DNA from: Kiloniellales bacterium
GTDB lineage: Bacteria > Pseudomonadota > Alphaproteobacteria > Kiloniellales > JAKSBE01
Direction of reading: 5' to 3'
NCBI GenBank assembly: GCA_022361275.1
Contig: JAKSBE010000274.1
Location: 1-38,228 of the forward strand
Length of the DNA: 38,228 nucleotides
Shown here: positions 1,889 to 20,054 of the stretch, one piece after another
Numbering within the stretch: position 1 is the first letter of the stretch
Layout: each line of letters begins with the position of its first letter
Position numbers and translations under genes: made by a program
Notes under the pieces: generated by a model
Seen by the model: only the letters and a program-made list of their open reading frames with translations
Told to the model about the DNA's origin: nothing
Database searches by the model: none

Positions 1889-2809
1889 GTGCCCACCCTG
1901 AAACAGCTTCGCTACCTGGTCGCGGTCGCTGAGACCCTGCACTTTCGGCGAGCCGCCGAGATGAGCCACGTCAGCCAGCCCACGCTCAGCGGCCAGCTAC
2001 GCGAGCTCGAAGACCGTCTCGGCGTACAGCTCGTCGAGCGCAGCCGCAGCAAGGTCGTCCTCACGCCGCTCGGTCGCGAGATCGCGGCCAGGGCGAAGAC
2101 CGTCTTGCGCGACGTCCAGGATGTGGTCGAGCTCGCCAAGCAGGGGCAGGCGCCGCTGGGCGGAACCATTCGGGTCGGCGTGCTGCCGTCGCTCGGGCCT
2201 TACTTCCTGCCGCACATCCTGCCCGAACTTCACGACCGCTATCCGGAGCTCAAGCTCTACGTCCGGGAGGGCCTGCCCGACGTTCTGCTCGAGGGGCTCG
2301 ACGACGGCAAACTCGATCTGCTGTTCTTTCCCCTGCCGGTCAAAGGTGCCGACCTGCAGAGCGTCAGGCTGTTCCGCGAGCCGCTCTGGGTCGTGGTCCC
2401 CGGCGAGCATCGCCTGGTGTGCCGGGAGAAGATCCAGAGGTCGGACCTTGAGGGCGAGACCTTCCTGACCCTGGAGCGCGGCCACCGGCTGCACGATCAG
2501 GTCCGGGAGCTCTGCGAGCAGTACGGCGCCGAGCTCTCGCTCGACTACGAGGGCACCAGCCTCGACACTCTGCGCCAGATGGTGGCCATGGGCATGGGCT
2601 TGTCCCTCCTGCCCGCGCTCTACGTTCGCTCCGAGGTGCTGCACGACCGCCAGGTGGTCGCGCGGGAGATGAAGTCTCGGGCGCCCTACCGCATGGTCGG
2701 GATGATCTGGCGGCGGCAGTCGGCGCGGCAGGAGGAATACGAGACCCTCGCCGACCAGATCCGCAGCATCCTGAAGAACCGGGGCCTGCAGATCACCGTG
2801 ATGTCCTGA
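1889..2809 (+). CDS. OxyR-like LysR-family regulator lacking the peroxidatic cysteine
   Basis: A 306-residue LysR-type transcription factor. The N-terminal winged helix-turn-helix (residues 1-60, HFRRAAEMSHVSQPTLSGQL) and the effector domain (from about 92) resemble OxyR throughout, including VGVLPSLGPYFLPHILP and GTSLDTLRQMVAMGMGLSLLPAL. In OxyR, Cys199 in GHCLRDQ is oxidised by peroxide and pairs with Cys208. Here the motif reads GHRLHDQVRELC: the first cysteine is Arg200 while the second (Cys209) remains. It therefore should not sense peroxide by the classical disulfide. A canonical oxyR lies 17 kb away in the same window. Translation starts at GTG 1889. A strong palindrome upstream suggests autoregulation, and related palindromes suggest it controls mrp, usp and the F0 pair. 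Family is certain; role is inferred. Confidence 0.85.
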   Translation: MPTLKQLRYLVAVAETLHFRRAAEMSHVSQPTLSGQLRELEDRLGVQLVERSRSKVVLTPLGREIAARAKTVLRDVQDVVELAKQGQAPLGGTIRVGVLPSLGPYFLPHILPELHDRYPELKLYVREGLPDVLLEGLDDGKLDLLFFPLPVKGADLQSVRLFREPLWVVVPGEHRLVCREKIQRSDLEGETFLTLERGHRLHDQVRELCEQYGAELSLDYEGTSLDTLRQMVAMGMGLSLLPALYVRSEVLHDRQVVAREMKSRAPYRMVGMIWRRQSARQEEYETLADQIRSILKNRGLQITVMS

Positions 2810-3061: not shown

Positions 3062-3445
3062 TCAAGTCCGTCGCTCCTCCGCCTCCGGGGCCGTCGCCCG
3101 CTCGTCCTCCATCCCGCCGGCCGGAGGTCTCCGGCCGAGCTCGTCGGTCACCATTCCCTTCCACAGCGGGACGCCGGTCCGATAGGCCGCCCGGCCGATC
3201 ATGTGGGCGGCGACCGGCGCGGTCAGCAGCAGGAACAGGATCGCGGCCAGGGCACGGGCGACGATCCCGGTCTCGCCGAAGTGGGTCGCCACGGCGAGCA
3301 GGATCAAGCCGCAACCCAGCGTCCCCGCCTTGGTCGAGGCGTGCATCCGGATCAGGACGTCCGGCAGGCGCAGGACGCCGAGCGCCGCGGCGAAGGCGAA
3401 GAAGCCGCCGGAGACGACGAGGAAGGACGTCAGGATCTCGGTCAT
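3062..3445 (-). CDS. mrpG: Mrp antiporter subunit G
   Basis: The last gene of the mrp operon, 127 residues. MrpG (MnhG/PhaG) is a small three-helix subunit of the multi-subunit cation/proton antiporter in the inner membrane. The family core is seen in FFAFAAALGVLRLPDVLIRMHASTKAGTLG, followed by hydrophobic segments at about residues 45-60 and 65-85. A charged C-terminal tail (GGMEDERATAPEAEERRT) extends beyond the usual core. Its ATG overlaps the mrpF stop by 4 bp, so translation is probably coupled. Confidence 0.93.
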   Translation of the reverse strand: MTEILTSFLVVSGGFFAFAAALGVLRLPDVLIRMHASTKAGTLGCGLILLAVATHFGETGIVARALAAILFLLLTAPVAAHMIGRAAYRTGVPLWKGMVTDELGRRPPAGGMEDERATAPEAEERRT

Positions 3446-3777
3446 CGCGGGTCCTCCCCCCCTTCACCCTCCTCCGGCGCGCCGCCTTCGCGGTACGTCT
3501 GCCGCCGCTCGGCGAAGCGGGCGAAGGCGACGGTGGCCAGGAAGGCGACCAGCGCCAGGGCGATGGCGACGTCGAGGAAGGCCGGCTCCTCGGCGGCGAT
3601 CGCGAAGAGCGCCGAAAAGGCCACGGTGAGCACGGTCAGAAGATCCAGGGCGACGACCCGGTCGGGCAGGCTCGGCCCACGGGCCAGACGCAGCACCGAC
3701 AGGGCCATGGCCGCCAGAAGCAGCGCGAAGGCGATGTCCACTGCCCAGGGCAGGATGGTTCCGGCTGTATCCATCAC
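3442..3777 (-). CDS. mrpF: Mrp antiporter subunit F
   Basis: A 111-residue membrane subunit with three predicted helices and the family motif RGPSLPDRVVALDLLTV near residues 33-49. MrpF is needed for assembly and activity of the Mrp complex and is homologous to MnhF/PhaF. The C-terminus is acidic and glycine-rich (EGGAPEEGEGGEDPR). It overlaps mrpE upstream and mrpG downstream by 4 bp each. Confidence 0.93.
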   Translation of the reverse strand: MMDTAGTILPWAVDIAFALLLAAMALSVLRLARGPSLPDRVVALDLLTVLTVAFSALFAIAAEEPAFLDVAIALALVAFLATVAFARFAERRQTYREGGAPEEGEGGEDPR

Positions 3778-4247
3778 TCCAGTGCCTCGATGACGCGACG
3801 TTCGATTCCCTGCTTCAGATCGCGGCGCAGCTCCTCAGGGTCCTCGACGAACATGGCGTGGACGTAGAGGGTCCGGCGGTCGGCGGAGACATCCAGACTG
3901 AGGCTGCCGGGGGTCAGCGAGATCAGATTCGCGACCAGCAGGATGCCGCCCTCGCCTTCGACCTCCAGGGGCAGGGCGATGATCCCGGGCCGGCTGAGAT
4001 GGGCCGGTGTCACCACGTCCCAGACCACGCGGAAGCTGGAGACCACCAGCTCGTAGACGAAGAGGCCGGCCAGCCGCAGAACCCGGAAAACCCGCCCGAA
4101 GTAGGCGCTGTCCTCGAACAGCGGCCGGGCGGCCCAGAGGGCGAGGTAGCCGAGCCCGAAGCCGAGGGCCAGGCTCGGCAGCGTGAAGCTGCCGACCAGG
4201 GCGGCCCAGGCCGCCGCCAGAAGCATGTTCACGACCAGGGGGTTCAT
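3774..4247 (-). CDS. mrpE: Mrp antiporter subunit E
   Basis: A 157-residue subunit. It has N-terminal hydrophobic helices (about residues 5-40), a further helix at about 55-75, and a cytoplasmic domain with the MrpE signature ANLISLTPGSLSLDVS and the terminal HAMFVEDPEELRRDLKQ. MrpE is a peripheral part of the Mrp complex that influences its stability and activity in other bacteria. It overlaps mrpD and mrpF by 4 bp. Confidence 0.93.
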   Translation of the reverse strand: MNPLVVNMLLAAAWAALVGSFTLPSLALGFGLGYLALWAARPLFEDSAYFGRVFRVLRLAGLFVYELVVSSFRVVWDVVTPAHLSRPGIIALPLEVEGEGGILLVANLISLTPGSLSLDVSADRRTLYVHAMFVEDPEELRRDLKQGIERRVIEALE

Positions 4248-5746
4248 GGCGCACCTGCCAGCACGCCCCGGACGTAGGGCGTCGGATCCAGAAGCTGGTC
4301 GGCCGCGCGTTCGGCGAGGGCCAGGAAGGGCTCGGGCGCCAGACCGATGGTCACGGTCAGCGCGGCCAGAGCCAGAACCGGGCCCAGCAGCGCCAGAAGC
4401 TCGCGCCGCTCCAGCACGGCGAGCCGCGGCGCGACGCCGGCCGGGTGCGGCTTCCAGAAGGCCTCGGCCCAGATCTTGGTCATCGAGAAGACGGTCAGCA
4501 GACCGACCGCCAGGGCGACCGCGGCGGCGACGTAGGCGCCGGTCTCCAGGCTCGCCTTGATCAGCAGGAACTTCGCCCAGAAGCCGGAGAGCGGCGGAAA
4601 GCCGGCCAGCGAGAAGGCCGGCACCAGGAACAACGCGGCGAGCAGGGGACTGGACTTGTAGAGCCCGCCGATCGCGCCGAGCTCGAAGGACCCGGTCAGG
4701 CGCCTGGCGACGCCGCTGATCAGGAAGAGGTTCGCCTTCACGATGATGTGGTGGACCAGGTAGAAGACGGCGCCCAGCAGCGCCAGCGGCGTGTACAGCG
4801 CGAGCCCCAGCACCATGTAGCCGATCTGGCTGACGATGTGGAAGGAGAGCACCTTGCGGAACTCGCTCTGCGCCGCCGCGCCCAGAACGCCGGTGATCAT
4901 GGTCAGGGCGGCGACGACCAGCAGCAGGCCGTGGGTGAAGGCCAGGTCCTGGGTGAAGACCAGGGTGAACATGCGGATCAGGGCGTAGACCCCGACCTTG
5001 GTCAGCAGGCCGGCGAAGACCGCCGAGATCGCCACGGCCGGCGTATGATAGGAAGCCGGCAGCCAGAAGAACAGCGGAAAGAGCGCGGCCTTGATCCCGA
5101 AGGCGACGATGAAGAGGACCGCGATCACGCTCAGCAGGCCCTGGTTCTCGGCCACGGCCACGGCGAGGTGCAGGTCGGCGAGGTTCAGCGTGCCGGTCAG
5201 GCCGTAGAGCAGCCCGATCCCGGTCAGGAGCATCACGGTCGAGACCAGGTTGAGGGCGACGTACTTGATGCCGCCGTCGAGCTGCGCCTTGCTCTGCCCC
5301 AGGACCAGGAGGCCGAAGGAGGCGATCAACATGACCTCGAACCAGACGTAGAGGTTGAAGAGGTCGCCGGTCAGGAAGGCGCCGCAGACTCCCGCGAGCA
5401 GCACGTGAAAGAGCGCGTGATAGCCCAGCGCCTCCTGACGCGCGTCGATGTCGGCCAGGGCGTAGACCGCCACCGCCAGGCCGGTGATCGCGGTGATCAG
5501 GACCATGATCGCGCTCAGCAGGTCGGCGACCAGGGTGATGCCGAAGGGCGCCGGCCAGGCGCCCATCTGGGCCGCCAGCAGGCCCTGGTCCCAGACCTCG
5601 GCCAGCAGCCAGAGCGCGGCGCCGAGCAGGGCCAGGCAGCCGCCGATGCTGATCCAGCGCGAGGCCGTGCGCTGCTTGCGCAGCAGGCAGGTCAGGATCG
5701 CGGCCCCGAGGGGCAGGAGGATCGGCAGGGAGAGGAGCCAGCTCAC
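4244..5746 (-). CDS. mrpD: Mrp antiporter subunit D (NuoM/N-like)
   Basis: A 500-residue, roughly 14-helix proton-translocating subunit related to complex I NuoM/NuoN. Visible family motifs are FNLYVWFEVMLIASFGLLVLG, with the conserved membrane Glu, FFWLPASYHTPAVAISAVFAGLLTKVGVYAL, with the key Lys, and YLVHHIIVKANLFLISG. MrpD and MrpA are the two antiporter-like subunits thought to move Na+ and H+ across the inner membrane. The length is normal. It overlaps mrpC (5743-5746) and mrpE (4244-4247) by 4 bp, part of the tight operon. Confidence 0.95.
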   Translation of the reverse strand: MSWLLSLPILLPLGAAILTCLLRKQRTASRWISIGGCLALLGAALWLLAEVWDQGLLAAQMGAWPAPFGITLVADLLSAIMVLITAITGLAVAVYALADIDARQEALGYHALFHVLLAGVCGAFLTGDLFNLYVWFEVMLIASFGLLVLGQSKAQLDGGIKYVALNLVSTVMLLTGIGLLYGLTGTLNLADLHLAVAVAENQGLLSVIAVLFIVAFGIKAALFPLFFWLPASYHTPAVAISAVFAGLLTKVGVYALIRMFTLVFTQDLAFTHGLLLVVAALTMITGVLGAAAQSEFRKVLSFHIVSQIGYMVLGLALYTPLALLGAVFYLVHHIIVKANLFLISGVARRLTGSFELGAIGGLYKSSPLLAALFLVPAFSLAGFPPLSGFWAKFLLIKASLETGAYVAAAVALAVGLLTVFSMTKIWAEAFWKPHPAGVAPRLAVLERRELLALLGPVLALAALTVTIGLAPEPFLALAERAADQLLDPTPYVRGVLAGAP

Positions 5747-6129
5747 GCCTCAGGCCCTCCCTCGCCTTTCGGCGTCTCGCCGATCGGCTCCGCTTCGCGC
5801 ATCGCGTGGCTGTCCAGCGTGCCCAGCACGTGGTAGCCGCGATAGACCAGGACCAGGGCGAAGGCGAGCAACCCGAAGCCGATCACGATCGCGGTCAGGA
5901 CCAGGGCCTGCGGCAAGGCGTTGGCGACGACGCCGGCCGGGCCGTCCAGGCCCTCGGGAATCAGCGGCGGCGCCGCGCGGACCAGCCGGCCGGCGGTGAA
6001 GATGGTCAGGTTGGCGGCGTTGCTGAGCAGCACCAGGCCGATCAGGAACTTCAGCACGTTGCGGGCGAGCATCAGGTAGACGCTCGTCGCCACCAGGATG
6101 CCGACCAGGACCGCGAGGGCCGCCTCCAC
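5743..6129 (-). CDS. mrpC: Mrp antiporter subunit C (NuoK-like)
   Basis: A 128-residue, three-helix subunit homologous to NuoK, with the typical LMLARNVLKFLIGLVLLSNAANLTIF segment and PQALVLTAIVIGFGLLAFALVLVYR. It starts with GTG at 6129, only 3 bp after the mrpB stop, and overlaps mrpD by 4 bp. It is the one junction in the operon without an ATGA-type overlap. Confidence 0.94.
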   Translation of the reverse strand: MEAALAVLVGILVATSVYLMLARNVLKFLIGLVLLSNAANLTIFTAGRLVRAAPPLIPEGLDGPAGVVANALPQALVLTAIVIGFGLLAFALVLVYRGYHVLGTLDSHAMREAEPIGETPKGEGGPEA

Positions 6130-6132
6130 GGT

Positions 6133-6552
6133 TCAGACCTCCTCTTCCAGGGCGAAGACCAGGGTCAGGACCGCGCCGACGACGACCAGGTAGACGCCGA
6201 CATCGAAGACCAGAACGCTGCTCAGCGGCAGGCCCTTGCTGTCCTCGGTGGCGCCAAGGAACCACCACTGCCCGGTGAAGAGCGGATCCCCGAAGGGCCC
6301 CGCCGAGAGGCCGGCCAGCAGCGCCAGCGCGAGGCCGATTATGCCGAGGTCCCTTGGATCGATCCGCAAGGCGGCGCGGGCCGCCGCGGTGCCCTGCGCG
6401 ATCGCGTAGAGCGCGAAGCCGATCGCCGCGATCAGGCCGCCGATGAAGCCGCCGCCGGGCTCGTTGTGGCCACGCAGCAGCATGTAGACCGAGAACAGCA
6501 GCATCAGCGCCACCAGGACCCGGGTCGCGGCGCTGAGGATCAGGGAGTTCAT
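6133..6552 (-). CDS. mrpB: Mrp antiporter subunit B
   Basis: A 139-residue membrane subunit. [24 protein letters not shown] is the MnhB/MrpB signature, and the C-terminus carries [26 protein letters not shown]. The ORF track runs this frame up to 7386, but that extension is a shadow of mrpA; the true start is ATG 6552, overlapping the mrpA stop by 4 bp. MrpB is a separate gene here, so the operon is the seven-gene group 1 arrangement and not the fused PhaAB form. Confidence 0.95.
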
Positions 6553-8870
6553 CTCGACACCTCCCGGCCGGCCCCGCCGCGAAGCAGCGCGAAGGCGGCG
6601 AGGGCGGCGACGATGACCACGGCGATCTCGCCGAAGGTGTCGAGGGCGCGGAAGTCGACCAGGATGACGTTGACGATGTTCCGGCCGTAGGCTTCGGGCA
6701 GACTGGCGGACTCGAAGTAGGCGGTGATCTCGCGGTCGAGCGGTGTCTCGACCACCGCAATCAGGACGGCGGCGACCGCCGTGCCCAGGGCCAGCGCCAC
6801 CACCGCATCCCGGCGGCGGCCCCAGGTCCCGCCGCTGCGGACCGCGCGGAAGCCCGGCAGGCGGACCATCAGCACGGCCAGCAGGATCACGACCAGGGTC
6901 TCGACCAGCAACTGGGTAATGGCGAGGTCCGGTGCGCCGAAGCTGACGAAGAGCACGGCGATGCCGACCCCGACGACGCCCAGGGCCGAGATCGCCGCCA
7001 AGCGGGAGTCGGTCGCGGCGGCCAGGAAGGCGCCGGCCGCGACCAGACCGAGCAGGCCCCATTCCCTGGCAAGGAGGGCCGGCGGCGCCTCGGGCAGGCG
7101 CAACGCGTCGGTGACGAGAAAGCTGGCGGAGAGCGCAAGGGTCAGGGTTGCGAAGACGACCAGCAGATAGGTGGTGAGCCGGCCGTTCTGGAGCACGCGG
7201 GTCTGGACCGCGGCGACCGCCTTGAGACCGTCGAGCAGGCGATCCCAGGCCCGATCGGCGGTGGTCGGCAGCCGGGCTTCGGCCGCGGCCAGGGCCACGC
7301 GCAGCCGCTGGTGGCCGGCGTAGACCGCCAGGCCCAGGCCGAAAGTGAGCAGGCTGAGCATCAGCGGCAGGTTGATGCCGTGCCAAAGCGCCAGTTTCAC
7401 GCTCTCCGGCCGGCCGAGGATCGCGGTCACCGCCGGCTGCACGAAGACGTCGGCGATCAGCGAGGGGGCCAGGCCGAAGCTCAGACCGAGGACGGCCAGG
7501 AGCAGCGGGCCGGCCAGCATCCGAAAGGGGGCTTCGTAGGGCGCCTTCGGCGTCGCCGGGCTCGGGCCGTAGAAGGGCCGCACCGCGACGATCGCCGCCA
7601 CCGCGACCATCAAGGCGTTGGCCAGCACCGCCGCGGAGGCGACCAGCAGCGGCTCGGACGCGATGGCCAGGGCGCCCTCGTACTTCAGCTCCTTGCCGAT
7701 GAAGCCGAGGAAGGGCGGAAAGCCGGCCATGGAGAGCGCGGCCAGGGCGGCGGCGGCGGCCGTCACCGGCATCGCACGGGCCAGGCCGTGCAGTCGCGCC
7801 ACCTCCCGCGTACCGCTGGCATGGTCGACGATGCCGACGATCAGGAACAGTGCCGCCTTGTAGAAGGAATGGACGATCAGGAAGGTCATCGCGGCGGCGA
7901 CCGCCACCGTCGCCTCCGCGCCCAGGAACATGGTCAAGGTGCCCAGCGCCATGACCGTGGTATAGGCGAGCACGAGCTTGAGATCGGTCTGCCGCAGGGC
8001 CAGGATCGAGGCCCAGACCGCGGTGATCGCGCCGAAGATCGTGAGGCTCCAGATCCAGGCCTCGGTCCCGCTCAAGGCCGGATGCAGACGCGCCAGCAGG
8101 TAGATGCCGGCCTTGACCATGGTCGCCGAATGCAGATAGGCGCTGACCGGGGTCGGCGCGGCCATGGCGTTGGGCAGCCAGAAGTGAAAGGGCACCTGCG
8201 CCGACTTGGTAAAGGCGCCGAGGAGCACCAGGACCAGGATCGGCGTGTAGAGCGCATGATCCTGGAGCAGCTCGCCCGAGGCGACGATCTGCGAGACCTC
8301 GAAACTGCCTGCCGCCGTCCCGAGCAGGATCAGCCCCGCCAGGAGCGCCAGGCCGCCGGCGCCGGTGACCAGAAGGGCCTGAAGGGCCGCCCGCCGCGCC
8401 TTGGCCGAGCCGTGGTCGAAGCCGACCAGGAGGTAGGAGGTGACGGTCGTCAGTTCCCAGAACACGAAAAGCGTGATCAGGTTGTCGGCCAGGACCAAGC
8501 CGAGCATCGCGGCCATGAAGGACAAGAGGTAGAGATAGTAGCGCCCGAGATGGGGATGGCCGCCGAGATAGGCGCCGGAATAGAGCAGCACCAGAGTGCC
8601 GATCCCGCTGATCAGCAGCGCGAAGGTCAGGCTTAGGCCATCGATGAGGAATGACAGGCTGACACCCAGGCTCGGCACCCAGTCGGTGCTCAGCCGGACG
8701 ACCCCGCCACCTGCGACCGCGGGAACCTGGGCCGCGAAGAACAGGGCCAGGGCAGCCGGAAGCGCGGCCAGAAGCCAGCCGGCCCAGACCGATCGCGCGT
8801 CGCGCGTTTCCCCCGGACCCACTGCAATGTCTTGTCCCTCACCCGACCCCTGCGACCCCTGATCCCGCAT
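6549..8870 (-). CDS. mrpA: Mrp antiporter subunit A (NuoL-like)
   Basis: A 773-residue large subunit and first gene of the mrpABCDEFG operon. The N-terminal two thirds is NuoL-like: [20 protein letters not shown] with the membrane Glu, [19 protein letters not shown] with the Lys, and [15 protein letters not shown]. The C-terminal third has the MrpA-specific extension ([22 protein letters not shown] and [16 protein letters not shown]), corresponding to the NuoJ-like DUF4040 and MbhE-like segments. The Mrp complex exports Na+ (sometimes K+ or Li+) in exchange for protons and supports growth at high pH or high salt. The first 25-30 residues are polar and poorly conserved, and the ribosome site is weak, so the start could be slightly internal. 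An operator-like palindrome lies 88 bp upstream. Confidence 0.95.
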
Positions 8871-9029: not shown

Positions 9030-9992
9030 TCACCCCTCCAGGCACACGGGAGTCTGGAAGCCGGGCGGCTTGACCGCGAGTACCGAACAGTTGACCTGAC
9101 CGAGGATCGCTTCGGCGGTGTTTCCGATGAAGAAGCCGCTGATCCCGGTTCGGCCGACCGTCCCCATGACGATCAGGTCGACCCTGGTGTTCCGGGCCAG
9201 CTCGGGGATCAGCGAGCCCGCTTCGCCCTTGAGCAGGTGAACACGCTTTCCCCGATCGGCGATCGGGTAGCCTTCGAGCACCGTGTCAAGACGGCTTCGG
9301 TGCCGCCCTTCCTCCTCCTCGAGCAGCCGTTCGATCTCTGCCTCGCTCGCGCGCAGAAAGGCACTGTAACGGAAGGAATCCTCGCCGACCAGCCGCCAGG
9401 CGTGGACGACGTGGAGCTCGCTGTCGTCCATCTTGGAAAGCGAGGTCGCGAGGTCGAGGATGAGGCTGTCCAGCGCCGACTTCTCCTCGTCTATCGGGTC
9501 CGGGTCGACCGCCGCGAGAACCCGCGCGTAGCCGGGCACCGTCCCTTTCTTCATGATCCAGACGGGGCAAGGACACTTGCGCAGAAGATGAAGGTCGGTG
9601 CTGCCGAAGAGCTGCGGCCAGCCCGCCCTATCCCCCTCTGCGCCCTTCATCACCAGATCGTGGCCGCTGCGGAGAACCTCGCGGATGATCTCGAGGAAGA
9701 CGACTCCCTGGGGCACAAGGGTCCGCACCTCGACGCCCTGGGCCGTGACCGTGGCCCCGATCGCGGAAAGCCGGGCGCGATGAAAGTTCAGGAGCTCCTG
9801 CTCCACCTCTTGGCCGTGGGTGCCTGGAAGAGCGGCAAAGATGGCAGAGAGTTCGCCCGGCTCCGAAGACACCGGATCGATCAAGGTAATCCGGGCGCCG
9901 TTGGATTTCGCCAGCGAGATCGCACGCGCCAGCAGCTCGTCATGTTCGCTTTCGCGATCGCAGACGAGCAGGATCTTCTTGAACCTCTTCAT
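9030..9992 (-). CDS. Tandem-domain universal stress protein (UspE-like)
   Basis: A 320-residue cytoplasmic protein made of two Usp domains (about residues 1-150 and 155-310). The second ends in GTVGRTGISGFFIGNTAEAIL, matching the nucleotide-binding G-2x-G-9x-G pattern. The first begins with FKKILLVCDRESEHDELLARA but lacks a full glycine loop. UspE-type proteins bind ATP/AMP and aid survival under oxidative, energy or envelope stress. The ORF track extends to 10679, but the region beyond 9992 is non-coding; ATG 9992 follows GGGAG and begins the typical MKRFKKILL. It is transcribed toward mrpA and divergently from the exported-protein/F0 genes, with a shared operator-like palindrome between. 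The context suggests control together with mrp and the F0 pair. Confidence 0.92.
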   Translation of the reverse strand: MKRFKKILLVCDRESEHDELLARAISLAKSNGARITLIDPVSSEPGELSAIFAALPGTHGQEVEQELLNFHRARLSAIGATVTAQGVEVRTLVPQGVVFLEIIREVLRSGHDLVMKGAEGDRAGWPQLFGSTDLHLLRKCPCPVWIMKKGTVPGYARVLAAVDPDPIDEEKSALDSLILDLATSLSKMDDSELHVVHAWRLVGEDSFRYSAFLRASEAEIERLLEEEEGRHRSRLDTVLEGYPIADRGKRVHLLKGEAGSLIPELARNTRVDLIVMGTVGRTGISGFFIGNTAEAILGQVNCSVLAVKPPGFQTPVCLEG

Positions 9993-10318: not shown

Positions 10319-10627
10319 ATGACGCGGTCCTCAACGCGCGCACTGCCGACGATCGCCGTGATCGCGATCGGCCTCGGCGCAGCGCTGCCGATCGCGGCGC
10401 CGGCCTCGGCCCGCGAGGCCGGCGGCACTCAGCACTGCCTTGGCGAAGTGGGCTACCAGCTTCCCGGGACTTGGCATATAGAGGATTCACAGATAGAGGA
10501 TACGCAGATCGACGACGGAAGGACGTTCGAGGCGACCGGCGGCAACACGGGGCCAGGCAACACGGGGCCAAGCCGCGAGGGCGCTTCCGACGAGCAGAGC
10601 CTGCAGAGCGATTGTGCCCTGGTGTGA
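10319..10627 (+). CDS. Small exported acidic protein with short tandem repeats
   Basis: A 102-residue protein of unknown family. Residues 1-32 are a clear signal peptide (LPTIAVIAIGLGAALPIAAPASA) with likely cleavage after ASA. The mature part is acidic, has two cysteines (in QHC and SDC, which could pair), and contains two sets of 15-bp repeats in the DNA: IEDSQ-IEDTQ-IDDGR (from 10478) and a perfect duplication of GGCAACACGGGGCCA (10541-10570) giving GNTGPGNTGP. GTGGAGGAA precedes the ATG by about 8 nt. It is the first gene of an apparent operon with the F0 a and c genes (50-bp and 52-bp gaps), replacing atpI, which usually stands in this position. I do not recognise its function. Confidence 0.7.
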   Translation: MTRSSTRALPTIAVIAIGLGAALPIAAPASAREAGGTQHCLGEVGYQLPGTWHIEDSQIEDTQIDDGRTFEATGGNTGPGNTGPSREGASDEQSLQSDCALV

Positions 10628-10677: not shown

Positions 10678-11445
10678 ATGGCCAGTTACGACCCGGAAGG
10701 GCCTTATGCGATCAGGCAGTTCGAGCTGGACGTCCTGATTCCGATCGAGGCCTTCGGGCTGGACCTGTCCTTCACCACGTCGGCGCAGGCGATGGTGACC
10801 ACCGTCATACTGGTGGTCGCCTTCCTGGCCTACAGCGCCCGCAAGCGGACCATGGTCCCGGGCCGCATGCAGGCCGCCGCCGAGGCGATCTACGCCTTCG
10901 TCGCGAACACCGTGCTCAAGACCGCCGGGCCGGAGGCCCGGCCGGCGATCCCCTTCGTCTTCTCGCTCTTCGTCTTCATCCTCTTCGGCAGCCTCTTCGG
11001 GCTCACGCCGGTCAAGTTCACCTTCACCAGCCACCTCGTCGTCACGCTCACCCTGGCGTTTGTGGTCTTCACCTACGTCAACGTCCTGGCGCTGCAGACC
11101 CAGGGCCTGGGATTCTTCCGGCTCTTCCTGCCGGCCGGAACGCCGGTATACATCGCGCCGGTCCTGCTGACCGTGGAGGTGATCTCCTACCTCTTCCGGC
11201 CGATCACCCTAGGCGTCCGCATCTTCGCGAACATCCTGGCGGGGCATATCATGATCAAGCTCTTCGCCGACTTCTGCGTGATGATGATCGACGCCCTCGG
11301 CGGGGTGGGAATCGGCCTGTCGCTGTTCCCGGTCATGATGATGGTCATCCTCTACGGCTTCGAGATCCTGATCTTCCTGATCCAGTCCTACATCTTCATG
11401 CTGATCACCTCGATCTACATCCGGGACTCGCTGCACGCGCATTGA
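10678..11445 (+). CDS. atpB: F0 ATP synthase subunit a homolog (orphan a/c pair)
   Basis: A 255-residue membrane protein homologous along its whole length to F0 subunit a, the stator half-channel subunit. The N-terminus QFELDVLIPIEAFGLDLSFT is typical of alphaproteobacteria. The essential Arg is present in GVRIFANILAGH, and the last helices keep the polar FLIQSYIFMLITSIYI segment with its Gln. All residues I know to matter for proton passage are therefore intact. It is followed by a c subunit, but neither b/b' nor F1 genes are here; the next gene is an unrelated M24 protein. It could be the organism's only F0 a/c, separated from atpF, or a second specialised copy near Mrp. Gene family is secure; its place in a working ATP synthase is open. 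Confidence 0.93.
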   Translation: MASYDPEGPYAIRQFELDVLIPIEAFGLDLSFTTSAQAMVTTVILVVAFLAYSARKRTMVPGRMQAAAEAIYAFVANTVLKTAGPEARPAIPFVFSLFVFILFGSLFGLTPVKFTFTSHLVVTLTLAFVVFTYVNVLALQTQGLGFFRLFLPAGTPVYIAPVLLTVEVISYLFRPITLGVRIFANILAGHIMIKLFADFCVMMIDALGGVGIGLSLFPVMMMVILYGFEILIFLIQSYIFMLITSIYIRDSLHAH

Positions 11446-11497
11446 TCCCGAGAACCTCACACGAAAACCTCGCACATTGATGAAAGGAGACCTTGAG

Positions 11498-11725
11498 ATG
11501 ACTGACGAGAGCATCAGGCTCTTGGCCGCGGCCATCGCCCTGCTTCCGCTGTTCGGCGTCGCCCTCGCCCTGGGTAAAATCTTCGGCGACTGGATATCCT
11601 CGGTGGCCCGCAACCCCGTCGCCGGCGAGACCGTCCAACCCGTCGGCCTGATGGGCTTCGCCTTGACCGAGGCCATCGCGCTCTTCGCCCTGATCGTATC
11701 CTTCATCATCCTCTTCGTCGGGTGA
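11498..11725 (+). CDS. atpE: F0 ATP synthase subunit c homolog
   Basis: A 75-residue two-helix hairpin, the rotor-ring subunit of F0. The ion-binding Glu lies in GFALTEAIALFAL and the polar loop reads VARNP, as in alphaproteobacterial c subunits. The ATG at 11498 follows AAAGGAG by 10 nt; the upstream TTG/ATG in the ORF track would put the ribosome site inside the gene. The first helix is unusual: the usual GxGxGxG packing motif appears as GVALALG, with the two central glycines replaced by alanine. No Na+-type Gln/Ser-Thr signature is evident, so proton binding is the simplest reading. The adjacent hairpins likely end the transcript. Confidence 0.93.
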   Translation: MTDESIRLLAAAIALLPLFGVALALGKIFGDWISSVARNPVAGETVQPVGLMGFALTEAIALFALIVSFIILFVG

Positions 11726-11850: not shown

Positions 11851-13047
11851 ATGGCCTTCCTGAGCAAGGCTGTCCAAGAGACGCGGCACGCCGCCATGCG
11901 GATCCTGATGACGGAGCAGGGTCTGGACGGCCTGGTCTTCACCCAGGCGGACTTCTTCCAGTTCGCCAGCAACTTCAACCTGGACGTCCAGACCTGGGAA
12001 CGGCCGGTCGCGCTGGTGCTGCCGAAGGAGGGCGCCCCCTTCGCCCTGCTCAACGAGCTCTCGACCCATCACTGGCAGATGGCCGGCGAACGCGGCCAGC
12101 TCTGGGTCGAGGAGGCGACCTTCTACGATGAGCACATCGGCCGCGCCAACGCCGAGCGCCTGATCACGGCCTGGGGCGCGATCCTGGCCGAGGCGCTCCG
12201 CGCGCGCGGCCTCGCCGCGGGCCGCCTGGCGGCCGATACCGTCACCGCCGTGCTCGCCGGCGTCGCCGAGCACCTCCCCGAGCTCACCATCGAGGCTCGG
12301 ACCGCCGAGCTGCGGGCCCTGCGCTGGCGCAAGCACCCGGAGGAGCTGGAGCTGATGCGCGCCGCGGCCGCACTCTCCGACTGGTCGCAGGACCGCTACC
12401 GGGAGGAGATCCGGCCCGGCCGCCTGGTCCAGGAACTCGACGCCGCCATGCACGCCGCGATCTTCGAGGAGGCGGCGAAGCGCTTTCCCGGCGAGCACCT
12501 CGAGGTCCGCGGCTACACCCTGACCGGCCCGGCCTCGGCCTCGCCCCACGGCAACGGTGCCCTGACCGGCCTGCGCATCGAGGAAGGCCACGGACTGGTC
12601 AACATCGTGATCCCGCGCCTCAACGGCCTGGTGATCGAGAACGAGCGGACCTACTTCTGCGGCCCGCCCGACGACGAGCAGATCCGGCTCTACGCGGCCG
12701 CTCTGGCCGCCAACGAGGCCGCGATCGCCCAAATGGTCAAGGGCAATCCGGTGCGGGCCATCGAGGACGCCGCCCGCGGCGTCATCGAGGAGGCCGGCTA
12801 CGGCCGCCACATCCGGCACCGCACCGGCCACGGCATCGGCCTGATCGGCCACGAATATCCCGAGGACATGGCCTTCAACGAGCGGCCGCTCATGGCGGGC
12901 GAGGTCTACTCCGCCGAGCCCGGCATCTACGTCTACGGCCTGGGCGGCTTCCGGGTCGACGACACGGTGATCGTCGGCGAGACGCCGGAAGTGATCACGC
13001 AGTCGCCCAAAGACCTGGCCAGCATCACCTTGCCGGTCTCGCTCTGA
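11851..13047 (+). CDS. M24-family (pita-bread fold) protein with altered metal ligands
   Basis: A 398-residue protein with the two-domain plan of Xaa-Pro peptidases, creatinase and related hydrolases: a variable N-terminal domain (about 1-150) and a catalytic-fold domain (160-390). HRTGHGIGLIGHEYP (His327) and AEPGIYVYG (Glu356) are conserved. The first Asp of the dinuclear metal site, normally in a D-x-G strand, falls on a hydrophobic residue (about Ile252 in NIVIPRLNG). The second is Glu263 in IENERTYF, and the last Glu is Asp370 in FRVDDTV. Such changes are seen in non-metallo members such as creatinase, so peptidase activity is doubtful. GAGGGAG precedes the ATG. It stands alone between the F0 pair and a repeat-bearing gap. 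Substrate unknown. Confidence 0.8.
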   Translation: MAFLSKAVQETRHAAMRILMTEQGLDGLVFTQADFFQFASNFNLDVQTWERPVALVLPKEGAPFALLNELSTHHWQMAGERGQLWVEEATFYDEHIGRANAERLITAWGAILAEALRARGLAAGRLAADTVTAVLAGVAEHLPELTIEARTAELRALRWRKHPEELELMRAAAALSDWSQDRYREEIRPGRLVQELDAAMHAAIFEEAAKRFPGEHLEVRGYTLTGPASASPHGNGALTGLRIEEGHGLVNIVIPRLNGLVIENERTYFCGPPDDEQIRLYAAALAANEAAIAQMVKGNPVRAIEDAARGVIEEAGYGRHIRHRTGHGIGLIGHEYPEDMAFNERPLMAGEVYSAEPGIYVYGLGGFRVDDTVIVGETPEVITQSPKDLASITLPVSL

Positions 13048-13772: not shown

Positions 13773-15698
13773 ATGCATGATTCTGAGACGGGAGTGCAGA
13801 CCTGCGGCAAACGGTCTGTCGCAAGACTCATATTTCCCATCGTGACCCTAGGCGCCTTGGGTCTCGGTCAAAGCGCCTCGGCCGTCGACGATGCGATCGT
13901 ACCGATTTCCGGCCTCAGCCCCTATCCACCAGGGGTTGACTGCAACGTGACTCCGCAGACGGGGACGGTTTGGCGCAACAACGAGACGGAGCCCTATATG
14001 GACGTGGACTTCGGCCGGCCCGACCGCATGGCCGCCATCGTCCATCAAGACCGCTGGAGCAACGGATCGGCGCAAAGCACCGCCACCTTCTATTCGGACG
14101 ACGGTGGCGAGACTTGGAACCTGGCCGACACGCCCATCACCCGTTGTTCGGACGGCCTGCAGAGTGGCCCCGAGTCTTTTGATCGCGCCTCCGACCCCTG
14201 GCTGACGGTGACTCCCGGAGAACTCGACGGGGATGACGACGACGATGCCGACAGCGGCGCCATCTTTCACCAGATGAACCTGATGACCGACAGGCTGCCC
14301 CCCTTCACCGGCGAACTGCGGAGTGCCTATTCCATGCTGCGCTCCACCGACGGCGGCAAGACCTGGTCGGATGCCATCGTGGTGAGCAATCGCACGGAGT
14401 TCGAGCCGGGCGCCCCCTTCAACGACAAGAACACCATGACCGCGGATCCCATCAAAAAGCGCTTCGTCTACGGGACCTGGCAGCTCTTGAGAGACGTCCT
14501 GCCCGACGACGACAGCGCCATCCCCATACAGCTCTTCTTCAGCGACACCTTCTTCATACGCTCGAGCGACAAGGGGCGGAGCTGGGAGCCGGCGCGCGCC
14601 ATCTACAAGATCCGCAACGACGTGGACCTGCTGGCCGCTGCCGGGATCGATCCCGAGGTGACCCCCGTCCTCGGCGCCCAGAACATCGGCCACCAGATCG
14701 TCGTGCTGCCCGACGGCCGGCTGGTGAACGTGTCCCGGGCGAGCTTTCTCACGACCGGACCGAACTTCTTCGAGCGCGTCATCATACGGTCGTTCGACAA
14801 CGGGAAGACCTGGGAGCAGAAGGCCAAGATCATTCCCTCGACCACCGTCGGCGGCTTCGTCGCCCTGGATGGCGAGCTGCAGGCCGCGACCGGAGGCGCC
14901 ATCAGCAACACCACCAGGTCCGCGGGCAGCATCCCCGATATCGCCGTCAATCGGACCAACGGCCATATGTACGTGGTCTGGCAGGACGTCGATCCGACCT
15001 TGTCCTTCATCGGCGTGTTCATGTCGGTGTCCAAGGATGGCGGCGATACCTGGAGCCCCCAGATCACCGTGGGCGGCGGTGGCCCCTCGGCCGACGGCGG
15101 CATAAGCTTCGCGCAGCTGCCGGCGGTTCACGTCGCGGACGACGGGACGGTCGGCGTGATCTTCTTCGATGATCGCAACGATGTCGCCTGCCCGGATCTG
15201 AGCCTCACGAACGAAGAGAATCCGGAGTGCTTCACCCTGCTGCCGGACGGCAGCGTGAAAGCGGGCCCCTTCGACCATGACTGGTTCTTCAAGACCTTCG
15301 ATGCCGACCTCAACCTGCTGTCGGAGGAGCGCGTGACATTGGAATCCTTCGACCTGCGTCAGGCGCCGATCGCCAGGGGCTACTTCCCGGGCGACTACGT
15401 CAACTGCAGCTCGACGGACAACGACTTCGTCTGCGCCTTCACTCGCACCAACAACAACGGCCTGCCCGTGCGGGGCAACCCGCCGGACGATGTCCTGGGT
15501 TTCGAGGAAGACAACCGCCAGGACATGGTCTTCACCCGCTTCCCCGGCGAATCGGTCTGCAACTTCAGACACACGCTCAAAAGCTTCGCGTCACAGTTGG
15601 CCGATGCGGAGATACGGATACCGAGGAGAGAGAAGAAACGGCGCCTGAACTTCCTCAGAGCAAGATTTGGAGTCGCTTGCCATGACGATGACGATTGA
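13773..15698 (+). CDS. Exported Asp-box (sialidase/BNR-fold) protein
   Basis: A 641-residue secreted or periplasmic beta-propeller protein. A signal peptide spans residues 1-37 (LIFPIVTLGALGLGQSASA, cleavage after ASA). Five Asp boxes of the SxDxGxxW type are visible: SDDGGETW (108), STDGGKTW (191), SSDKGRSW (264), SFDNGKTW (340) and SKDGGDTW (420), as in sialidases and related glycosidases. There is an acidic insert (DGDDDDDADS, about 152-161), and the end is basic then acidic (RREKKRRL...HDDDD). I could not see the full sialidase arginine triad, so the enzymatic role is unproven; many such proteins are annotated only as sialidase-like. AGGGAGGAG precedes the ATG. A small exported protein follows 88 bp downstream on the same strand. 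Confidence 0.85.
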   Translation: MHDSETGVQTCGKRSVARLIFPIVTLGALGLGQSASAVDDAIVPISGLSPYPPGVDCNVTPQTGTVWRNNETEPYMDVDFGRPDRMAAIVHQDRWSNGSAQSTATFYSDDGGETWNLADTPITRCSDGLQSGPESFDRASDPWLTVTPGELDGDDDDDADSGAIFHQMNLMTDRLPPFTGELRSAYSMLRSTDGGKTWSDAIVVSNRTEFEPGAPFNDKNTMTADPIKKRFVYGTWQLLRDVLPDDDSAIPIQLFFSDTFFIRSSDKGRSWEPARAIYKIRNDVDLLAAAGIDPEVTPVLGAQNIGHQIVVLPDGRLVNVSRASFLTTGPNFFERVIIRSFDNGKTWEQKAKIIPSTTVGGFVALDGELQAATGGAISNTTRSAGSIPDIAVNRTNGHMYVVWQDVDPTLSFIGVFMSVSKDGGDTWSPQITVGGGGPSADGGISFAQLPAVHVADDGTVGVIFFDDRNDVACPDLSLTNEENPECFTLLPDGSVKAGPFDHDWFFKTFDADLNLLSEERVTLESFDLRQAPIARGYFPGDYVNCSSTDNDFVCAFTRTNNNGLPVRGNPPDDVLGFEEDNRQDMVFTRFPGESVCNFRHTLKSFASQLADAEIRIPRREKKRRLNFLRARFGVACHDDDD

Positions 15699-19121: not shown

Positions 19122-20054
19122 TCAGGACAGCGGACGGACCACGTCGGGCAGCTTGCCCCGGATCAGCTCGGCGAGCTGCTGCAGGGATCCGCTGCGCGGG
19201 AAGGTCTTGCGGTAGACCAGGGCGATGCGGCGCAGGGCCTTGGCCGCGTCGATCGGCTTGGCGTCCAGCGGCGCCCGCCGGCTGCGGCGGCCGTGCAGCG
19301 CCAGGGCCGGCACCAGGGTGCAGCCGTAGCCGGCGGCCACCATCTGGCGCAGGGTCTCCAGGCTGGTGGCCTGGAGGTTGCCCAGGCCGTGCAGCTTGCC
19401 GCGCCCTGCCCGGCCTCGCGGCGCCTGTCCGCAGACGGACAGGGCCTGGTCGCGCAGGCAGTGCCCCTCGGCCAGGAGCAACAGGTCTTCCCTCACGAGG
19501 TCCTGCTCGGAGATCCGGGCCCGCTTGGCGAAGGGATGCTCCGGCGGATGGACGACCCAGAAGGGCTCGTCGAAAAGCGGCAGGACGGCCAGCTCGGCGC
19601 CCTCGACCGGCAGCGCCACCAGGGCCGCGTCGAGCTCGTGCGCCTTGAGCAGGTCCAGGAGCTGATCGGTCAGATCCTCCCGCAGGACCAATTCCAGCGC
19701 CGGAAAGGCCCGGCCGATGGGCGCCAGGATCCAAGGCAGGAGATAGGGCCCCAAGGTCGGGATGATGCCCAAGGTCAGGGGCCCGGCCATGGGATCGCGG
19801 TTGGCCGCGGCGATCTCCAGGATGGCGTCGGCCTGCTCCAGGGCCTGGCGCGCCCGCGCGACCACGGCCTCGCCCAGGGGCGTCACGACCACCGACTTGT
19901 TGCTGCGCTCCAAGAGCTGCAGGCCGAGGTAGGCCTCCAGCTTCTTGAGCTGGGAGCTGAGCGTCGGCTGGCTCACGTTGCAGGCCGCCGCGGCGCGGCC
20001 GAAGTGCCGCTCCTCGGCGACCGCGACCAGGTACCTGAGATCCCTGAGGTTCAT
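19122..20054 (-). CDS. oxyR: Hydrogen peroxide sensor OxyR
   Basis: A 310-residue LysR-type regulator of the peroxide response. With the start at ATG 20054 (MNLRDLRYLVAVAEERHFGRAA), the two redox cysteines in GHCLRDQALSVC fall at residues 199 and 208, exactly the E. coli numbering. The motif ATSLETLRQMVAAGYGCTLVPALAL is conserved. There is a small basic insert (PRGRAGRGKLHGLGN) after Cys208. The ORF track start at 20093 adds 13 residues unlike the family. It is divergent from a putative manganese exporter, with an Irr-like box between, and a catalase remnant lies beyond; catalase is a usual OxyR target. Confidence 0.95.
   Translation of the reverse strand: MNLRDLRYLVAVAEERHFGRAAAACNVSQPTLSSQLKKLEAYLGLQLLERSNKSVVVTPLGEAVVARARQALEQADAILEIAAANRDPMAGPLTLGIIPTLGPYLLPWILAPIGRAFPALELVLREDLTDQLLDLLKAHELDAALVALPVEGAELAVLPLFDEPFWVVHPPEHPFAKRARISEQDLVREDLLLLAEGHCLRDQALSVCGQAPRGRAGRGKLHGLGNLQATSLETLRQMVAAGYGCTLVPALALHGRRSRRAPLDAKPIDAAKALRRIALVYRKTFPRSGSLQQLAELIRGKLPDVVRPLS

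Follow-up and report, generated by a model that had tools for sequence, protein, structure and literature searches.

A conserved second pair of F0 subunit a and c genes beside an Mrp antiporter, a candidate alternative ATP synthase cassette in Alphaproteobacteria

The window analysed here, a contig of 38,228 nucleotides from a Kiloniellales bacterium (GenBank assembly GCA_022361275.1, contig JAKSBE010000274.1), carries a second pair of genes for the F0 subunits a and c of ATP synthase, which we call a2 and c2. The pair is conserved, selected, intact and linked to an Mrp antiporter, and the genome holds no b or F1 genes dedicated to it; the packing motif of c2 is changed, while its F1-docking loop is kept. 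Judging from these sequence features, it is somewhat probable that the cell uses a2/c2 conditionally, as an alternative a/c cassette for its resident ATP synthase.

The a2/c2 pair is intact and under purifying selection

The a2 gene (10678..11445, + strand) encodes 255 amino acids with the PF00119 fold and catalytic Arg of an F-type subunit a (PF00119, 180 bits; NF004482 above cut-off), and c2 (11498..11725, + strand) encodes 75 amino acids with the hairpin, helix-2 carboxylate and R-N/Q-P loop of an F-type subunit c (PF00137, 41 bits). Arg181, Asn185, His190, Glu229 and Gln236 are kept in a2, and c2 shows the inner-helix motif GxAxAxG, Lys27/Asp31, an RNP loop and Glu58. The original prediction had described the catalytic Arg and the last-helix Gln of a, and the Glu of c, as intact; none of Arg181, Gln236 and Glu58 varies among the 12 a2/c2 sequences. 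AF2 predicts c2 with confidence to be a helical hairpin (pLDDT 93.5) with a helix break before Pro17, and the best structural matches of this model are F-type c-rings. The a2 model, of moderate confidence (pLDDT 75), matches solved a subunits. On the evidence of the aligned genes, both are under purifying selection, with NG86 dN/dS of about 0.15 for a2 and 0.04–0.13 for c2.

b, b' and F1 genes lie away from the pair

The source genome (5.95 Mb in 615 contigs, 99.7% complete, 9.3% contamination; the window is its contig C108) was searched with profiles. No match to PF00430 (b) or PF00006 was found on the window contig; PF00430 matches were confined to contig C128 and PF00006 matches to contigs other than the window's, so the b, b' and F1 genes are truly missing at the window, which bears out the first description of a and c genes standing alone. 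A PF00119 search returned two a genes, and there is one F1 gamma gene. The genome check suggested at the outset, for a second atpB/atpE and for atpF/atpF', led to a complete, ordinary atpI-a-c-b'-b operon on C128. The pair is thus not the only atpB/atpE of its genome, nor does b lie nearby in an unsplit relative: c2 follows a2 in all 12 a2 loci examined and b adjoins in none. The window pair is a second a/c pair, not a split operon.

Eight of the nine a2-bearing genomes searched carry both a types; the ninth, G244 (a 90% complete assembly), yielded a2 only, with no ordinary a and no above-cut-off b. Throughout these nine, above-cut-off b/b' genes adjoin ordinary a only. The a2-bearing genomes searched have at most one F1 gamma gene each, and none was found in G002 (81% complete). 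A second full ATP synthase, including an N-ATPase, whose operons are complete, is ruled out, as b is found only beside ordinary a and gamma does not exceed one per genome. MAG contamination is an unlikely source of the pair, since the same-genus genomes G001 and G002 also carry it and the tetranucleotide composition of the window resembles that of C128 (r 0.98) and of G001 (r 0.996). V/A-type ATPase genes are also present in the window genome (L008, G000:C247:36000-52000); they include A/B-like and D genes as well as an ORF carrying two ATP-synt_C hairpins.

Orthologues of a2 are 55–91% identical and patchily distributed across Alphaproteobacteria. Those at 71–91% come from the genus and the order of the window genome and from alphaproteobacteria beyond these, among them Pelagibius, Minwuiaceae and Hyphomicrobiales records, and G374 carries a distant orthologue at 55%. 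Most genomes in the comparison are MAGs. a2 is present in 7 of 63 genomes of the order; two orthologues besides the window's (G244 and G374) were accepted among 385 genomes of the class, and none besides the window's was found among 399 genomes of the phylum. As it is missing from most relatives, a2 is not needed generally. Matches of 48% identity in G112, G330 and G235 belong to ordinary operons and were ruled out as orthologues. Phylogenetic analysis placed the 12 a2 sequences in one clade against 33 ordinary a (support 100/100), in a tree whose root is unknown and in which G374 forms a long branch. In G058, there are two a2 copies (G058:C119 and G058:C129), the second being cut by a contig end.

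The pair is linked to Mrp and Usp genes

The Mrp antiporter noted beside the pair was confirmed, with a full set of subunits A–G in the window and linkage in 10 of 11 close loci, where Mrp genes lie within about 8 kb of the pair; the exception, L051, is a 6.6-kb contig, and L050 is also covered as L070, with more Mrp genes. In the window, all seven genes are on the − strand: MrpA with MbhD/MbhE C-terminal domains (6549..8822, start uncertain, ORF to 8870; PF00361, PF13244, PF20501), MrpB (6133..6552; PF04039), MrpC (5743..6129; PF00420), MrpD (4244..5746; PF00361), MrpE (3774..4247; PF01899), MrpF (3442..3774; PF04066) and MrpG (3062..3445; PF03334). At the distant G374 locus (L069, 8039-9822), TerC and an ion-transport channel gene (PF00520) precede a2/c2, and no Mrp was found within 16 kb. 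All 11 close loci have a Usp gene in the vicinity; that of the window encodes a tandem, UspE-like universal stress protein (9030..9992, − strand; PF00582, NF008380).

A LysR-type OxyR-like regulator (1889..2809, + strand; PF00126, PF03466; GHRLHDQ...C motif) is encoded beyond MrpG in the window, and in several loci such a gene stands between Usp or Mrp and a2. The window copy has Arg at the peroxidatic Cys position of GHCLRDQ, and the context reads GHRL or GYRL, with this Cys replaced, in every locus where the motif was found. Redox OxyR control of a2/c2 is therefore not supported. A second LysR gene in the window (19122-20054) has the canonical GHCLRDQ.

Directly upstream of a2 lies a gene (10319..10627, + strand) for a small protein that is predicted to be secreted; it has two conserved cysteines (C40 and C99), LPGT[LW] and DCA[LW][VA] at the C-terminus, and no match in Pfam or NCBIfam. 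The secreted repeat protein first described in the place of atpI is thus real, and is conserved as a short two-cysteine protein: in at least eight loci, a2 is preceded by this gene, and in L051, L054, L055, L063 and L069 no such gene was seen ahead of a2. A search of 100 relatives returned it from the seven a2-bearing genomes and from no others, apart from one weak match with in-frame stops; as the search profile was itself derived from members of this set, the informative part of this result is the absence of the gene from the other relatives. The M24 gene after the pair (11851-13047) is likewise real but is not a conserved partner. It adjoins the pair only in the window, L049 and L058, that is, only within this genus, and so was ruled out as a member of the conserved unit. 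Downstream of it, positions 13773-15698 encode a predicted BNR/Asp-box repeat protein.

c2 has an altered helix-packing motif

To compare the rotor subunits, the columns of 28 distinct ordinary c and 12 c2 sequences were lined up on the loop Arg. All ordinary c sequences (28/28) have Gly at offsets -28, -26, -18, -16, -14 and -12, whereas c2 has, in the same order, Ala (12), Ala (10) or Ser (2), Gly (10) or Ala (2), Ala (12), Ala (11) or Gly (1), and Gly (12). Four of the six inner-helix Gly columns are therefore mostly Ala in c2 (12/12, 10/12, 12/12 and 11/12), and the substitutions are in register with the alkaliphile AxAxAxA motif. Pro17, Lys/Arg27 with Asp/Glu31, the RNP loop and Glu58 are found in 12/12 c2 sequences, and the outer helix and loop are near those of ordinary c (GFAL.EAIALFAL, RNP).

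In Bacillus pseudofirmus OF4, AxAxAxA in place of GxGxGxG relaxes helix packing, and the ring is a c13 ring (PMC2914638); the A16G/A20G change shrinks the ring from c13 to c12, and low PMF is said to favour larger rings (PMC4453477). Mrp is a further system on which alkaliphiles depend (PMC2914638, PMC4453477). As c2 resembles OF4 in having Ala for Gly at helix-packing positions, in the same inner-helix register, its ring is predicted to be probably wider than the ordinary c ring, although ring size is not reliably readable from sequence here, because c2 has only GxAxAxG and the solved c subunits closest to it in sequence and in fold include those of the yeast c10 and bovine c8 rings. Unlike an alkaliphile-type c, defined by AxAxAxA and PxxExxP, c2 matches the first motif in part (GxAxAxG, with AxAxAxG at two loci) and has no PxxExxP. 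Also, the OF4 motif is in the c subunit of its ATP synthase, whereas c2 belongs to a pair that is carried on top of ordinary a and c. The residues of a Na+ site, a helix-1 Gln and a Ser/Thr after the carboxylate, are absent from c2, which has Leu25 and Ala59-Ile60 at the positions that we take, by the register of the Ilyobacter c sequence, to be equivalent. Protons would thus be more likely than Na+ as the ion carried by c2.

A proposed role with the resident ATP synthase

Among the meanings first put forward for the pair, alternative parts swapped in under stress is the one that we favour, its assembly and its regulation being the steps that we infer. Stress, presumably alkali, Na+ or low proton-motive force in view of the Mrp, Usp and regulator neighbours, would lead the cell to make the a2 subunit and a c-ring of c2. 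Together with the resident b/b' and the one resident F1, they would form an ATP synthase whose rotor differs from the ordinary one. A wider c2 ring would take more protons per ATP and so allow synthesis at a lower driving force. The wider ring and the stress induction are less certain than the alternative-cassette reading itself, and the full version, in which an inducible a/c cassette swaps in a wider rotor and alters H+/ATP under alkali, sodium or low-energy stress, is put forward tentatively. Each species is normally taken to have a fixed H+/ATP ratio, set by its single c-ring; with a conserved extra a/c pair that has an altered packing motif and lies beside Mrp, a change of this ratio in bacteria becomes directly testable.

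Alternatively, c2, and a2 with it, might mix with the ordinary subunits, either in heteromeric rings or to modulate assembly. Heteromeric c-rings exist in Acetobacterium woodii, whose c-ring structure (4bem) is among the c2 matches, and the closeness of the c2 outer helix and loop to ordinary c would fit such mixing. However, the inner-helix packing columns differ systematically between the two kinds of c, which should disfavour mixed packing, and a2 is always accompanied by c2, which suggests a matched pair. We therefore regard mixing as unlikely. We give little credence to the stand-alone ion leak proposed at the outset; such a leak, of protons or of sodium, would dissipate gradients or balance them beside Mrp. 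The linkage to ion transporters and the lack of adjoining b and F1 genes agree with it, yet the F1-docking RNP loop, for which a free ring would have no use, is invariant in c2 (12/12), the full set of a catalytic residues is kept, resident b/b' and F1 are available, and Na+ ligands are absent at the expected c2 positions. That the pair has survived by chance from a second ATP synthase since lost would agree with its patchy distribution but is very improbable, given the purifying selection, the intact ORFs with their conserved residues and a neighbourhood conserved across several families. A split housekeeping F0 operon, with b and F1 located elsewhere, is refuted for the window by the complete ordinary operon in the same genome and by the presence of both a types in seven other a2-bearing genomes, where atpI-a-c-b'-b is likewise complete, and is practically out of the question for all but G244, the one genome where it could hold.

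The alternative-cassette reading was compared with known systems. The ordinary alphaproteobacterial F0 operon (atpI-atpB-atpE-atpF'-atpF) has homologous a and c genes in the same a–c order and with the same catalytic residues, whereas a2/c2 is without I, b' and b and has the changed c packing motif; a2 is 43–48% identical to ordinary a in the alignments made, with a stretch near 201–208 that is 7–8 residues longer. The Podospora anserina Atp9-5 and Atp9-7 genes encode c subunits that serve as alternatives in one ATP synthase, depending on conditions (PMC4956034), as is proposed here for c2, but they are eukaryotic, concern c alone, and have neither a companion a nor Mrp linkage. Photobacterium profundum SS9 has more than one ATP synthase gene set, and these are regulated by conditions; they are described as two ATPase sets (PMC10054830), whereas the window genome has only an extra a and c. 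No earlier report of such an a/c pair was found in the literature covered, with most subscription journals outside its scope.

Ordinary a and c appear to have been exchanged within the operon

The ordinary operons provide indirect support for a and c working with resident b/b' and F1. In a tree of I, b' and b, the window genome (G000) groups with G002 and G001, all of the same genus (100/100), whereas in a tree of ordinary a and c, G001 groups with genera of family f7 (100/100) and G000/G002 with G043, G057 and G058 (97/89). Between G000 and G001, identities are 60% for I, 64% for a, 64% for c, 65% for b' and 65% for b; between G000 and G043, they are 53%, 78%, 95%, 48% and 56%, respectively. 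Thus, ordinary a and c were apparently swapped within the operon while I, b' and b stayed (L007, G000:C128, versus L078, G001:C3), which suggests that a and c together form a natural module.
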